Positions 5,791-41,004 of a DNA stretch of 64,000 nucleotides are shown here, piece after piece. The translations under genes and the position numbers were made by a program. The stretch is from an uncultured Bacteroidales bacterium (GTDB lineage Bacteria; Bacteroidota; Bacteroidia; Bacteroidales; UBA932). The stretch is taken from positions 23,388 to 87,387 of the forward strand of contig CALUSC010000005.1 of NCBI GenBank assembly GCA_944323345.1, in the 5' to 3' direction. How positions within the stretch are numbered: position 1 is the first letter of the stretch; the number at the start of each line of letters is the position of its first letter. The notes under the pieces are model-generated. The model searched no databases. It worked only from the letters and a program-made list of their open reading frames with translations, and was not told the origin of the DNA.

Positions 5791-5903
5791 TATTTTCCGG
5801 TGCAGTTGGTCTCTTGGGGTATATTGCTGTGAGGAGATTGATATTTTCCGGTGCAGTTGGTCTGTGGAGGTGTATTGCGGTGAGGAGGCTGATATTTTCC
5901 GGC
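5791..5903. repeat. 51-bp tandem direct repeat (two full units and a partial one)
   Basis: Units begin with TATTTTCCGG at 5791, 5842 and 5893, exactly 51 bp apart. Units 1 and 2 share about 80 percent of bases by eye. The unit carries the sequence that forms the arm of the neighbouring 22-bp-arm hairpin, plus a stretch on the plus strand (GTTGGTCTGTGGAGGTGTAT) that looks like a degraded copy of that hairpin's core. No reading frame of interest is present. Confidence 0.85.
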
Positions 5904-5957
5904 ACAGAATTACAACCTCCTGCCGGAGGTCAACAGTGCCGGAAAATATCAGCCTCC
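5884..5957 (-). repeat. Hairpin element A: 22-bp perfect arms around a conserved core
   Basis: Plus-strand bases 5884-5905 and 5936-5957 are perfect inverted repeats of 22 bp (arm begins GGAGGCTGATATTTT). The 30-base core, read on the minus strand, is TGTTG, then ACCTCC-GGCA-GGAGGT, then TGTAATTCT. The same core, with a 5-bp inner stem and GTCA loop, occurs at 22694-22721 between arms of unrelated sequence but the same 22-bp length. On the minus strand the element begins 1 bp after the stop codon of the UPF0210 gene, so it would form the 3' end of that mRNA. There is no U tract directly after it. Confidence 0.9.
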
Positions 5958-5958
5958 G

Positions 5959-7323
5959 TTAATTCTTAAAACTGTGGATCGGCGCCGGAATCCGTCCCTC
6001 CCTGCGGATGAAGTCTTCGCATCCGAACCTGTTCACGGGCATTACAGGCGCGTGGCCAAGCAGGCCTCCGAATTCCACCGAATCCCCGACCGTCTTCCCT
6101 ATGACAGGTATGATCCTCACGGCTGTGGTCTTCTGGTTCACCATGCCGATGGCCGCCTCATCAGCTATTATGCCGGAAATGGTGCTGGCCGGTGTATCGC
6201 CAGGTATAGCTATCATATCAAGCCCCACTGAGCATACACAGGTCATGGCTTCCAGCTTCTCTATGGTCAGAGCCCCGCACTCGGCAGCCTCTATCATTCC
6301 CTGGTCCTCGCTGACAGGAATGAAAGCGCCGCTGAGTCCGCCTACATACGAAGATGCCATGACTCCGCCTTTCTTCACCTGATCGTTCAGCATGGCCAGG
6401 GCGGCAGTCGTTCCAGGAGCTCCTGCTTTCTCCACCCCTATTTCATGAAGGATGTCTGCTACGCTGTCTCCTATCGCAGGCGTAGGGGCGAGGGAAAGAT
6501 CTATAATGCCGAACGGAATGCCGAGCCTGCGTGAAGCCTCCTGGGCCACGAGCTGTCCCACACGGGTGATCTTGAACGCTGTCTTCTTTATGGTCTCGCA
6601 CAGGACTTCGAAAGAAGCGCCGCGTACGCTTTCCAAAGCATATTTCACCACACCGGGACCGCTTACGCCGACATTGATGATGGCATCTGCTTCAGTCACG
6701 CCGTGAAAAGCCCCGGCCATGAAAGGGTTGTCGTCAGGCGCATTGCACAGCACCACCAGTTTGGCGCAGCCCAGAGAATCTCTGTCGGCAGTGGCTTCGG
6801 CAGTCTTTCTGACGATTTCGCCCATCAGCCGCACGGCATCCATGTTGATTCCGGTTTTTGTGCTGCCTACATTCACCGAACTGCATACCCTTTCGGTCCT
6901 GGCAAGAGCCTCTGGAATGGATTCTATCAGCAGTCTGTCGCTTTCAGTCATTCCTTTCGACACTACAGCCGAATATCCGCCCAGGAAGTTCACCCCGACG
7001 GCCTTTGCGGCATCGTCCAGCGCCATGGCTATCTTCACGTAGTCCTGCGGCGTACGGCAGGCCGAAGCGCCCACCAGGGAAACAGGTGTGATGGAGATTC
7101 TCTTGTTCACTATCGGAATCCCGTATTCCATGGCTATGTTTTCAGCAGTCTCCGCCAGTTTTCCCGCCACTCTTACGATCTTGGCCTTTATGTTCGAGCA
7201 GACTTCGTCCACCGTATCTGCAGCACAGTCCAGAAGGCTGATACCCACCGTAATGGTCCGTACGTCGAGATTTTCTTTCTCGATCATCCGGTTCGTCTCT
7301 ATGACTTCGTTGATGTTGATCAT
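5959..7323 (-). CDS. UPF0210 (DUF711) PFL-family protein
   Basis: A 454-residue protein of the UPF0210/DUF711 family, cytoplasmic; structures exist for relatives but no biochemical function is established. The ATG at 7323 ([20 protein letters not shown]) overlaps the stop of the ACT-domain gene as ATGA, so the two are translationally coupled. This start is preferred to the 13-codon-longer frame, which would run into the neighbour. Conserved Gly-rich and Asn/Thr segments ([41 protein letters not shown]) are visible. UPF0210 and UPF0237 are neighbours in many bacteria and archaea, suggesting a two-part enzyme or an enzyme with an ACT sensor. Hairpin element A follows the stop codon. Confidence 0.9.
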
Positions 7324-7592
7324 ATCCTGTGCATTTTTTCGAAAATGTCCTCGCGCTGGCATTTGATCTGGACGCCGATATTTTTACCCAGGTCTTCCAG
7401 GTCTTCCGATACCTGATGGAAATCCACGGAGATGTTCCCGGTGTCGACTATCATCATCATGTTGAAATACCCCTGGACGATAGTCTGCGTGATATCCAGA
7501 ATATTTATGTTCTTTTCTGCCAGGTATGTGCATACCCTGGCAATGATGCCGACAGTGTCTTTGCCGACTACGGTGATTATGCTCCTGTTCAT
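7320..7592 (-). CDS. UPF0237 ACT-domain protein
   Basis: A single ACT domain of 90 residues ([20 protein letters not shown]), the ligand-sensing fold often used for amino acid binding. The ATG at 7592 is chosen over the longer frame from 7643 because the family starts at the V-x-G-x-D-x-x-G-I motif and because a -7 promoter element lies inside the longer frame. Its stop overlaps the start of the UPF0210 gene. The ligand is unknown; the family's constant pairing with UPF0210 implies it regulates that protein. Confidence 0.88.
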
Positions 7593-11976: not shown

Positions 11977-12009
11977 TTTGGAGATTGTTCCGGAAAATGC
12001 GTATATTCG
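11977..12009 (+). promoter_or_regulatory. Promoter of the riboswitch-btuB-btuG transcript
   Basis: TTTG at 11977-11980 and TATATTCG at 12002-12009 (one mismatch to TAnnTTTG) are 21 bases apart. The predicted transcript start near 12013 coincides with the first paired base of the riboswitch, which supports the call. Confidence 0.55.
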
Positions 12010-12013
12010 CGGC

Positions 12014-12240
12014 GGCCAAGGTTTCCGGACGCAAGAAGTCTGCGCGAGGAACGAAGAGGGAACGCAGTGAGAATCTGCGGCAGTACCCGCTGCTGTATGC
12101 CCGTGATGCGAGCCGGAAAACCGGAGCATCGGACAGCTTCACATTCTCTGCCACTGGTATCTTTCGTAGAAACCCTTTCGGGTCACCCTCGATACCGGGA
12201 AGGCGTGAAGCAGGGACGAGTCAGAAGACCTGCCTTTGCC
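12014..12240 (+). promoter_or_regulatory. Cobalamin riboswitch
   Basis: Adenosylcobalamin-sensing leader RNA. The conserved core GGGAACGCAGTGAGAATC at 12058-12075 is followed by CGGCAGTACCCGCTGCTGT, GCCACTGG at 12150-12157 and GGGAAGGCGTGAAG near 12197. The B12 box AGTCAGAAGACCTGCC is at 12219-12234. GGCCAAGG at 12014-12021 pairs with CCTTTGCC at 12233-12240 to close the P1 stem. About 105 bases separate it from the btuB ATG at 12347 and hold a GC-rich palindrome (CTGCCGGCAG) that could sequester the start region. High cobalamin is expected to switch the downstream uptake genes off. Confidence 0.93.
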
Positions 12241-12346
12241 GTTTATGGAACATCCTCCTGCGGGATTACGGGACGGAGTCACTGCCAAACATGTGCTATA
12301 CCGCTACGGAATCTGGCGCTGCCGGCAGTCTGGGATAAATGCAGTT

Positions 12347-22671: not shown

Positions 22672-22743
22672 ACAGACTGACATCCGAGAGTACTGTTGAC
22701 TCCGTCAGGAGTTGTAATTCTGTACTCTCGGATGTCAGTCTGT
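22672..22743 (+). repeat. Hairpin element B: 22-bp perfect arms around the conserved core
   Basis: The arm at 22672-22693 (begins ACAGACTGACATCC) and the one at 22722-22743 are perfect inverted repeats of 22 bp. The 28-base core at 22694-22721 reads TGTTG, ACTCC-GTCA-GGAGT, TGTAATTCT. Compared with element A at 5884-5957, the internal-loop bases are identical, the inner stem is one pair shorter, the tetraloop is GTCA instead of GGCA, and the arms share no sequence. It begins 15 bp after the stop codon of the upstream gene on the same strand. Confidence 0.92.
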
Positions 22744-22800
22744 TGTTTACTGTTGACTCCGTCAGGAGTTGTAATTCTGTACTCTCGGATGTCAGTCTGT
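22694..22800 (+). repeat. 57-bp direct repeat of the element B core plus right arm
   Basis: The segment 22694-22743 (core plus right arm) recurs exactly at 22751-22800, with a 7-base linker TGTTTAC. The second copy has no left arm of its own, although it could pair with the first left arm in a longer fold. The region ends 16 bp before the stop codon of the convergent DUF1015 gene. Confidence 0.92.
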
Positions 22801-22816
22801 TGTCAGTCACCCATAG

Positions 22817-24055
22817 TTAGTCGAGTTTGTGAATGGCGAGACCGCTGCGGAGCTTCGGTTCGAACCACGTGGTCTTCGGCGGCATGATATTGCCGGAATC
22901 GGCGATATCCACTATCTGTTTCATCGAAACCGGATAAAGCGCGAACGCCACAGCCATCTCTCCGCTGTCCACCCTTTTGGAAAGTTCTCCCAGACCGCGG
23001 ATTCCGCCTACGAAATCTATCCTTTTGTCAGTCCTCAGATCCTTGATGCCGAGTATCCTGTCCAGAACCAGATCCGACAGGATCGTCACATCCAGTACTC
23101 CGATAGGGTCGGAATCGTCATATCTGCCTTCCTTCGCTTCCAATGAATACCATTCGCCCCCGAGATACATCGAGAAATTATGCAGGTGCTCCGGTTTGTA
23201 TATGCCGCTACCTTTCTTTTCCACGATGAAATCTTTTTCCAGGGCTTTCACGAATTCTTCAGGACTCATGCCGTTGAGGTCCTTGACTACGCGGTTGTAG
23301 TCTATGATGGTGAGCTGGCTTTCAGGAAAAGCCACCGCCATGAAGAAATTATACTCTTCATTACCGGTGTGCCCTGGATTTCCTGTGCGTTTCTCGGTCC
23401 CTACACGTGCCGCTGCCGCTGTCCTGTGGTGCCCGTCTGCCACATAGAATGCGGGAATATCCTTGAAAATCTCGGTAATCCTGTTTATGACAGCATCATC
23501 GTCTATCACCCAGAAATGGTGTCCGAATCCGTCTTCAGCCGTAAAGTCATACTCAGGTTCTCCGGCAGTGTATCTGCGTACTATAGAGTCGATTTCCGCA
23601 TTGTCGGGATATGAGAAGAAAACAGGTTCTATGTTTGCATTTTGGATTCTGACATGTATCATCCTGTCATCCTCCTTGTCTTTGCGCGTGAGCTCGTGTT
23701 TTTTTATCTTGCCGTCGGAGTAGTCGTCAGTGTGGGCGCAGAGCACCAGTCCGTACTGTGTCTTGCCGTTCATGGTCTGGGCATAGATGTAGTAGCACGG
23801 CTTGCTGTCCTGTACCAGCCATCCTTTCTCCTGCCAGTCCTTGAAATTCTTCACAGCCCTGTCATATACTGTCTGGCTGTGTTCATCCGGCATGGGCTCG
23901 AAGTCTATTTCCGGTTTGGTTATGTGCAGAAGGGATTTTTCACATGCTTCCGCCTTCGCCTCGGCCGAATTCAGGACATCGTACGGGCGTGCCGCCACTT
24001 CCTCTACAATCTCTTTTGGCGGTCGTACTGCCGCAAACGGTTTGATTCTTACCAT
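22817..24055 (-). CDS. DUF1015 family protein of the serine operon
   Basis: A cytoplasmic protein of the DUF1015 family, start ATG at 24055 (MVRIKPFAAVRPPKEIVEEV), 412 residues. Hallmarks are the N-terminal RPYDVLN, YYIYAQTMNGKTQYGLVLC near 100, the conserved YVADGHHRTAAAARV near 225 and EEYNFFMAVAFPESQLTIIDYNRVV near 260. It follows serC and serA on the same strand, a gene order repeated in many Bacteroidota and Firmicutes. The family includes SerK-type serine kinases described in archaea (free serine to phosphoserine), which fits the location, but this is inferred from context. A terminator-like hairpin separates it from serA. Confidence 0.85.
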   Translation of the reverse strand: MVRIKPFAAVRPPKEIVEEVAARPYDVLNSAEAKAEACEKSLLHITKPEIDFEPMPDEHSQTVYDRAVKNFKDWQEKGWLVQDSKPCYYIYAQTMNGKTQYGLVLCAHTDDYSDGKIKKHELTRKDKEDDRMIHVRIQNANIEPVFFSYPDNAEIDSIVRRYTAGEPEYDFTAEDGFGHHFWVIDDDAVINRITEIFKDIPAFYVADGHHRTAAAARVGTEKRTGNPGHTGNEEYNFFMAVAFPESQLTIIDYNRVVKDLNGMSPEEFVKALEKDFIVEKKGSGIYKPEHLHNFSMYLGGEWYSLEAKEGRYDDSDPIGVLDVTILSDLVLDRILGIKDLRTDKRIDFVGGIRGLGELSKRVDSGEMAVAFALYPVSMKQIVDIADSGNIMPPKTTWFEPKLRSGLAIHKLD

Positions 24056-24087
24056 ATCGATTATCTGTTTTGTGTTATTGGGCAATT

Positions 24088-38817: not shown

Positions 38818-41004
38818 ATGGATAAGAATTTTAAAAGGACATTGGTTACGTGTGCGCTTCCGTATGCGAACGGACCGGTGCATATCGGACATCTCGCCGG
38901 AGTGTACGTGCCGGCCGATATTTATGTCAGGTATCTGAGAATGAGGGGAGAAGACGTGCTTTTTATCTGCGGTTCGGATGAACACGGCGTACCTATAACC
39001 ATAAAGGCGAAGAAGCAGGGCTGCACCCCGCAAGATGTAGTCGACAGATATCACGGCATCATAAAGAAGTCGTTTGCCGGATTCGGGATAAATTTCGACA
39101 TATATTCCAGGACCACGTCTTCCATACATCACGTGAATGCCGCCGGATTTTTCCGCAAACTCTATGATGAAGGCAAATTCGTGGAGAAAGAAAGCGAGCA
39201 GTATTATGACGAGGAGGCGAAGACTTTCCTGGCCGACCGCTATATCGTCGGCACATGTCCGAAATGCGGAAATGAAGGCGCCTACGGGGACCAGTGCGAG
39301 AAGTGCGGGAGCACGCTCAGTCCCGACGAACTGATAAACCCTAAATCTGCACTGAGCGGAAGCCAGCCGGTGAAGAAAAAGACCAAGCATTGGTATCTTC
39401 CTCTGGACCAGTATGAACCGTGGCTGAAAGAGTGGATTCTCGACGGACACAAGGAGTGGCGTACCAATGTCTACGGACAGTGCAAGTCATGGATAGACGG
39501 AGGCCTGCAGCCGCGTGCAGTGAGCCGTGACCTCGACTGGGGAGTGCCGGTGCCTGTAGAGGGCGCTGAAGGAAAGGTGCTTTATGTCTGGTTCGACGCA
39601 CCTATCGGCTACATTTCGAATACTATGGAGCTCCTGCCCTCCAGCTGGGAAAAATGGTGGAAATCCGAGGATACGAAGCTCGTCCATTTCATAGGAAAGG
39701 ACAATATCGTCTTCCACTGCATCGTTTTCCCGTCCATGCTGAAGGCTTACGGAAGCTATGTCCTTCCGGACAATGTTCCTGCGAACGAGTTCCTGAACCT
39801 CGAAGGTAACAAGATCTCCACTTCGAAAAACTGGGCAGTCTGGCTTAACGAATACCTGGAAGAGTTCCCGGGCCAGGAGGATGTGCTCCGTTACGTGCTC
39901 TGCGCCAATGCCCCTGAAACGAAGGACAACGACTTCACATGGAAGGATTTCCAGGCACGGAACAACAGCGAGCTGGTAGCGATCCTCGGAAATTTCGTGA
40001 ACCGCGCCGTAGTGCTGACGCACAAATATTTCGGTGGCAGGGTCCCTGCCAATGCGAAACCTGAGCCGGTCGATGCCGAGACTCTGGCCCAGATACCTGC
40101 CCTGAAGAAGGCTGTCGAGGAAAATCTGGAGAATTACAAGTTCCGCGAGGCTCTCAAGGAGGCCATGAATATCGCTCGTATTGGCAACAAATATCTGACA
40201 GACACCGAGCCGTGGAAAGTGGCCAAGACAGATATGGACAGGACAGCTTCGATACTGAATGTATCCCTGCAGATATGCGCCGACCTGGCGATAGTCTTCG
40301 AGCCGTTCCTGCCTTTCTCTGCAGAAAAACTCCGCCGTATCCTGAACGTGGATATCGAGGCCGGGACAGATCATCGTGCCGGCGAAGAAGGGACTTGCGG
40401 TGAAAACATATTCAAGGCAGGCGAGTCGGCAGCCCTGCACACCGTGTCATATGCGGAAGCCTGTCCTGCCGGAGAAGGAATACCGGTACTTTCATGGGAT
40501 GACCTCGGTTCCGAGGCCATACTTGCCGAAGGACATCAGCTCGGTGAGGCCGTACTTCTTTTCAGCAAGATAGAGGATTCCGTAGTGGAGGCACAGGTAG
40601 CCAAGCTGGAGGCGGCAAAGGCAGCCAATGAAGCCGCAGCACATGAGGAAGAGGCCTGCAGGACGGCTCCGCAGAAGCCGGAATGCACTTTCGAAGATTT
40701 CGAAAAAATGGATATCAGGACCGCTACCGTGCTGGAGGCAGAGAGAGTGCCGAAGACCGACAAGCTGCTGAAACTGACTATCGACACCGGTATCGACAGG
40801 CGGACCATAGTTTCCGGTATCGCTGAATATTACACTCCTGAGCAGATGCTCGGAAAACAGATATGCATTCTCGCCAATCTCCAGCCGAGGAAAATACGCG
40901 GCATAGAGTCCAAGGGAATGATACTTATGGCACGTCAGGGTGACGGGAAGATGCGTTTCATCACTCCTGAGGAAGTCCTGTCCAACGGAGCCGAAATCGG
41001 ATAG
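38818..41004 (+). CDS. metG: Methionyl-tRNA synthetase
   Basis: Charges tRNA-Met. From the ATG at 38818 ([20 protein letters not shown]) there are 728 residues; the 7 extra upstream codons are not family-like. The HIGH motif is VHIGHLAG near 22, the zinc knuckle is [17 protein letters not shown] near 142-158, and the KMSKS motif reads [10 protein letters not shown] near 336. The C-terminal tRNA-binding domain ([27 protein letters not shown]) begins near 625, so it is the long dimeric form. A charged Ala/Glu-rich linker precedes it. Confidence 0.97.

Follow-up and report, generated by a model that had tools for sequence, protein, structure and literature searches.

A lineage-restricted, REP-like hairpin family in gut Bacteroidales with arms probably derived from the host gene at several sites

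Two hairpins in a 64,000-nucleotide stretch of DNA from an uncultured Bacteroidales bacterium (the window, meaning the whole stretch that was analyzed) belong to a real, lineage-restricted family of REP-like elements, the arms of which appear to be derived at several sites from the gene that they abut. The members share a covarying core that is placed with a strong polarity relative to stop codons, the near arm holds native codons at five sites, and between orthologous copies, the two arms change together and the core inverts. It is usually assumed that dispersed palindromes bring stems of their own. In this family, the conserved loop is repeated, but at some sites, the stems consist of the ends of host genes. 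Orthologous copies with arm rewriting, flips, and losses would amount to a natural bacterial record of template switching with dozens of comparable sites, and the cause of the polarity of the core relative to stop codons is a testable question. A literature search by title and start of abstract, covering papers available without subscription, found no description of this hairpin family.

The hairpin family and its conserved core

Elements A and B (Table 1) were originally described as perfect 22-bp inverted arms around related cores, and both the arms and the core sequences were confirmed. The A core reads TGTTG-ACCTCC-GGCA-GGAGGT-TGTAATTCT on the minus strand, and the B core reads TGTTG-ACTCC-GTCA-GGAGT-TGTAATTCT on the plus strand. 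Each element lies between convergent genes, which by Pfam encode an AMP-binding enzyme and a DUF711 protein on the two sides of A and an MFS protein and a DUF1015 protein on those of B. The sequence AGAATTACA occurs four times in the window against 0.47 expected, a number that was never reached in shuffles, and the copy at 40130 has no hairpin of the A or B type when read by eye. Further family copies in the same genome (G000) are found at C1:2719, C39:6217, and C5:21057.

Table 1. Positions of the two hairpins, adjoining genes, and other features in the window
Feature	Position	Strand	Details
Element A	5884..5957	minus	Perfect 22-bp arms 5884-5905 and 5936-5957 around core 5906-5935
51-bp tandem array before element A	5791..5902		2.2 copies; A arm and degenerate core-like sequence (by eye)
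DUF711 gene	5959..7362	minus	PF05167 (Pfam); stop codon adjoins element A
Element B	22672..22743	plus	Perfect 22-bp arms 22672-22693 and 22722-22743, core 22694-22721
57-bp tandem of B core and right arm	22691..22803	plus	Perfect; second core 22751-22778, second right arm 22779-22800
DUF1015 gene	22817..24085	minus	PF06245 (Pfam); 3' end next to the tandem copy of B
Cobalamin riboswitch	12002-12251	plus	Rfam search
Long inverted repeat, short loop	15424-15466		19 bp perfect; perhaps an ordinary terminator
Long inverted repeat, short loop	48895-48943		24 nt, 88%; perhaps an ordinary terminator

Loose two-part patterns (60 of 200 genomes of the genus) returned mostly stemless matches, with only those in G181 and G000 real by eye, and a covariance model was therefore used instead. 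This model, built from A, B, and the orthologue in G181 and applied at a threshold of E 0.01 or better to 400 congeneric genomes with 12 candidates scored per genome, matched in 16 of the 400. A pattern search of these 16 genomes gave matches in 14, some of them by chance, and a filter on the fetched flanks left a catalogue of 77 copies in 13 genomes at 56 independent sites. Up to 16 copies were catalogued per genome (the model search having scored 12 candidates in each), with 16 each in G564 and G547, 8 each in G178 and G103, 7 in G530, 6 in G181, 5 in G000, 4 in G507, 3 in G314, and 1 in each of four more genomes. As the filter required a TGTT head, the model-positive genomes G068, G430, and G512 fall outside the 77 copies; G512 has a hairpin without the core. 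Copies with divergent heads or tails (e.g., G314:C5, G314:C20, and G103:C100) and core-only copies were also left out, some of which were used as orthologues, and heads in model matches outside the filter include CGTTG and GGTCG.

In a wider search of genome contigs, 28 of the 34 matching stretches were from Bacteroidales or Cryptobacteroides by title (uncultured Bacteroidales and one Candidatus Cryptobacteroides). The hosts appear to be a single lineage of uncultured gut bacteria made up of Cryptobacteroides and its kin, and the genus as a whole is probably Cryptobacteroides. The remaining six stretches and a single viral contig had no arms by eye and were taken as chance matches, and the B region was matched weakly by two phage records (E 0.2). 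A separate arrangement is seen at locus L158 (G178:C65, 1999-2249), where a 66-bp tandem contains the core four times, in three cases with no matched arms.

The element spans about 38-44 nt and consists of GGCAC or GCGAGCAC, TGTTG, an inner stem of 5-6 bp with a GNNA loop, TGTA..CT, and GTGCC or GTGCGAGC. The head is TGTTG in 74 of the 77 copies and TGTTT in 3, TGTT being demanded by the filter, and the tail starts with TGTA in most copies, followed by A, T, or G. Loops are mostly of the GNNA type (GTCA 19, GGAA 9, GCCA 9, and GGCA 8), and inner stems range from ACCCC/GGGGT (30) to ATTTCC/GGAAAT (9), plus others. For the covariation test, near-duplicates were removed and 19 of the 23 distinct copies that have a 28-nt core were used; both sides had changed at 23 of the 27 pairs. 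The pair score of 0.428, compared with 0.141 for shuffled pairs, was equalled in none of 500 shuffles and also exceeded all slid controls. In the same 19 copies, the inner stem covaries at four of five pairs and is 100% paired, a percentage that arises partly by construction, as copies were pre-filtered for a paired stem and arms, so that the informative part is the variety of pair types.

Conserved loops and shape with stems that are often replaced had been predicted for a multi-copy family, and the further copies in this genome and its relatives bear this out. Constancy and full replacement of the arms were also predicted, and in these respects, the family departs from the expectation. Mean ungapped arm pairing is 0.30 or less from 22 nt outward, and the 16 of 77 copies with at least 12 perfect pairs from the core have perfect arms of 15-24 bp, so arm length is not always 22 bp. 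Of the two grounds for refutation that had been named in advance, a lack of further copies is not borne out, and inconstant arm length is borne out in part. Nor are arm sequences always unrelated, since many copies have partly common arms; among pairs of copies from one genome with non-identical cores, 47% of the outer-arm letters are in common compared with 28% by chance. The arms come in two styles, GGCAC/GTGCC (straight) and GCGAGCAC/GTGCGAGC (with an inner asymmetry), and both occur at one site, the former in G530 and the latter in G000. Partial tandem copies lie beside several elements.

Placement at stop codons and the origin of the near arm

A stop codon lies by the TGTA side of 49 of the 77 copies and by the TGTTG side of 13, compared with about 9% per side for a random position; stops were scored in the interval from -40 to +30 nt around the outer arm end and taken directly from open frames of at least 120 aa, some of which may be spurious. 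The stop is on the TGTA side only in 39 copies and on the TGTTG side only in 3 (p 6e-9). Counted by site, 27 of the 56 are TGTA-only, 1 is TGTTG-only, 8 have both, 2 have both and TGTA-only copies, 2 are mixed, and 16 have neither. The stop codon falls within the arm at 19 of the 49 copies. These counts support a location at gene 3' ends, as predicted from the position of A and B; the accompanying claim that the elements are on the strand of the gene does not extend to the family, as the core and the abutting gene are mostly on different strands across the 77-copy catalogue. A, which is co-oriented with its gene, is an exception, the copy in G000 being flipped.

Ten sites were compared with relatives. 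Six of 19 prepared gene ends were queried in the search of the relatives, with further orthologues fetched later; where the rows of the element-bearing genomes ran beyond their own stop, they were disregarded, and the orthologous comparisons at prfA, DUF711, G181:C44:22405, C46, and the B orthologue were read by eye. Five of the ten sites have native last codons in the near arm and their inverted repeat in the far arm, three have last codons that are not common to relatives, and two are ambiguous. The original suggestion that arms are copied from local sequence therefore fits five of the ten sites.

At prfA, the last codons (AAE-stop) are conserved in element-free relatives, and the inverted repeat is present in the far arm at both G530 loci. 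G000 has kept both arms of this site and lost the core, and in G314 and G507, the core is kept and the far arm is absent, apparently through a deletion between two copies of the core. At the DUF711 site of G314 and G507, the near arm holds the stop and the last codon, and the far arm is an inexact inverted copy; the site is empty in G041 and G448, which are near-identical to each other. G181:C44:21916, with one mismatch, and G103:C123 follow this pattern, the far arm again being an inverted copy of native codons that lie in the near arm. At G530:C49, a perfect 19-bp arm includes 16 nt of coding sequence; its codons for TGIL (in MTGIL) correspond to those for TDIL (in MTDIL) in G181, although the stop lies two codons earlier than in G181, and three other relatives end differently. 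The last codons within the near arm of G564:C124, G564:C91, and G178:C66 differ from those of all relatives read; a native near arm is thus not demonstrated at these three sites, where it may have come with the element. Neither arm of G181:C44:22405 is present at the empty site in G507. At C46, the element-free G000 allele retains the far-side sequence, and this allele is read as a deletion between TTTAT repeats, although the far arm could instead be the native one.

Arm co-change, core inversion, and known systems

Changes in the arms were inferred from assembled genomes. The orthologue of B in G507 lies at the end of the same DUF1015 gene, and all six arm pairs that differ between it and the G000 copy are compensated (6/6), with flanks that are 83-86% identical. 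Between G314:C5 and G507:C7, for which the longer flank matches are 87-92% identical, 9 of 10 differing pairs are compensated, the 10 being possibly an overcount, as the comparison is ungapped and the arms are one nucleotide apart in length. One of two changed arm pairs is compensated among the site A orthologues, the three changes between G530:C23 and C41 and the one between G221 and G530 are all uncompensated, and one orthologous arm comparison shows no changes. The core also changes orientation: that of A in G000 runs opposite to the core of the orthologous copies in G181, G314, and G507, and the core is inverted between the orthologues G314:C20 and G507:C48.

Small inversions in plastid genomes arise by a hairpin mechanism in which the loop between inverted repeats flips, as it does in this family; we know of no dispersed conserved core among the plastid hairpins. 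Template switching between inverted repeats reportedly homogenizes arms and inverts spacers (PMC8604942), and the compensated arm changes and inverted spacers reported here are similar, but the repeats described there are at unrelated single yeast loci, whereas here, one conserved spacer occurs at 56 sites. Polymerase template switching would account for the arm copying and the core flips without a new enzyme.

Also among the closest systems are REP and BIME elements with their RAYT transposases, as described in PMC2817692, PMC6006769, and PMC3733652. By those descriptions, the family resembles REP and BIME elements as a set of short, dispersed, lineage-specific stem-loops with complementary changes and with tandem or grouped copies, and RAYT-like genes are present in the genus. 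Unlike the elements so described, it has long outer arms, at some sites with the end of the abutting gene itself, and a polar placement at stop codons, and it lacks a conserved GTAG, GTGG, or CGTC tag at the foot of the stem as found in REPs of the GTAG/CGTC type. It also differs from REPs in that RAYT genes do not consistently flank it, the core being near a RAYT gene in one of five genomes. REPs of E. coli that lie near stop codons reportedly affect translation.

Possible origins of the arms and of the dispersed core

The explanation that we lean towards, and consider somewhat probable, is a REP-like dispersed core with arms that are written and homogenized by template switching. Within a single clade of Cryptobacteroides-type Bacteroidales, a REP-like stem-loop would have reached the ends of genes, and where the element lies just past a stop codon, its short base (GCAC/GTGC) would let a nascent DNA strand fold back. 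The polymerase would then take about 10-20 nt of the flank on the side of the gene, sometimes with the stop and last codons, as the template for a far arm in inverted orientation, and through repeated template switching, the arms would stay matched while diverging, the core would invert, partial tandems would arise, and whole hairpins would be lost. Template switching explains the copying, the co-change, and the flips but neither the polarity nor the spread of the core. We infer that the arms are made by template switching with the GCAC/GTGC base as primer and that the core may have been spread by an HUH (Y1) transposase of the RAYT kind.

The enzyme might also do more than move the core. It is possible, though doubtful, that a RAYT-like HUH transposase both disperses the core and builds the inverted arm from the target through its own reaction, with no part played by later replication errors. 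One RAYT subfamily (at least 515 bits, the next best match having 247) is found in 5 of the 400 genomes, and all five are element-bearing. Its members give REP_Tyr_transpos matches below the curated cut-off and have H-x-H and YVLRNP motifs, interpreted in part after PMC6006769. In G221 (L293:2937-3001), a clear core with a weak model match (E 0.03) is found beside 52-bp arrays, with about 290 nt between it and the RAYT gene. Against this involvement, the subfamily is absent from 8 of the 13 catalogued genomes, including the copy-rich G564, several of these genomes being incomplete MAGs. Moreover, in a prfA tree of 21 genomes, which leaves most of the 400 outside and has weak support at 11 of 18 inner branches, all 13 bearers belong to a single clade that also includes 3 non-bearers. 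Within that clade, five out of five would occur by chance with a probability of about 0.29, so that a link that looks very strong over the 400 genomes is not significant there. The arrays beside the RAYT genes are, in addition, other palindromes and not this core. Given the missing subfamily in 8 of 13 genomes, the single clade of bearers, and the different flanking repeats, we rate a RAYT-type HUH transposase as a plausible, rather than demonstrated, mover of the core. A further account, to which we give a similarly low probability, is a self-tailoring mobile hairpin in which a bare core of about 40 nt lands in a polar manner by the stop and the insertion reaction writes the inverted gene end; if true, each copy would be a long perfect hairpin made of host sequence.

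The strong polarity to stop codons, the paired and covarying inner stem, and the conserved loops would also be expected of a functional 3' UTR RNA. In this reading, a hairpin that starts at the stop would protect the mRNA of the upstream gene, regulate it, or slow ribosomes as they terminate; the core would be recognized by a protein, and the arms would change freely since pairing alone matters. The strand that faces the core, at most sites the sense strand of the gene, has a mean predicted energy of about -44 kcal/mol, which fits this reading. We nevertheless regard such an RNA as unlikely, as orthologues at two loci have their cores in opposite orientations, the element is missing from several orthologous sites, and model matches are confined to 16 of 400 congeners. 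In an Rfam search of the whole window at gathering score, the cobalamin riboswitch was the only match, with none at A or B, and element A gave sub-threshold matches only. On the strand of the gene, no run of T follows the far arm in the 49 copies with a stop by the TGTA side (mean of 1.65 T in 8 nt). The same lack of a T-tract disfavors intrinsic terminators or pre-existing palindromes with an inserted core, as do G041 and G448, in which the prfA and DUF711 sites are empty and show no palindrome by eye; we consider such an origin very improbable despite the location after stops and between convergent genes.

The RAYT loci have repeats of their own. The five genes of the subfamily (L290-L294, in G314, G507, G547, G221, and G181) have 52-bp tandem arrays of 1.9-8.6 copies on both sides, one array in G547 being about 870 nt from the RAYT gene. 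The 52-bp unit differs among genomes, G507 having its own array and one like that of G314, and the units contain an inverted pair when read by eye. Another RAYT locus (L305) has 51-bp arrays.
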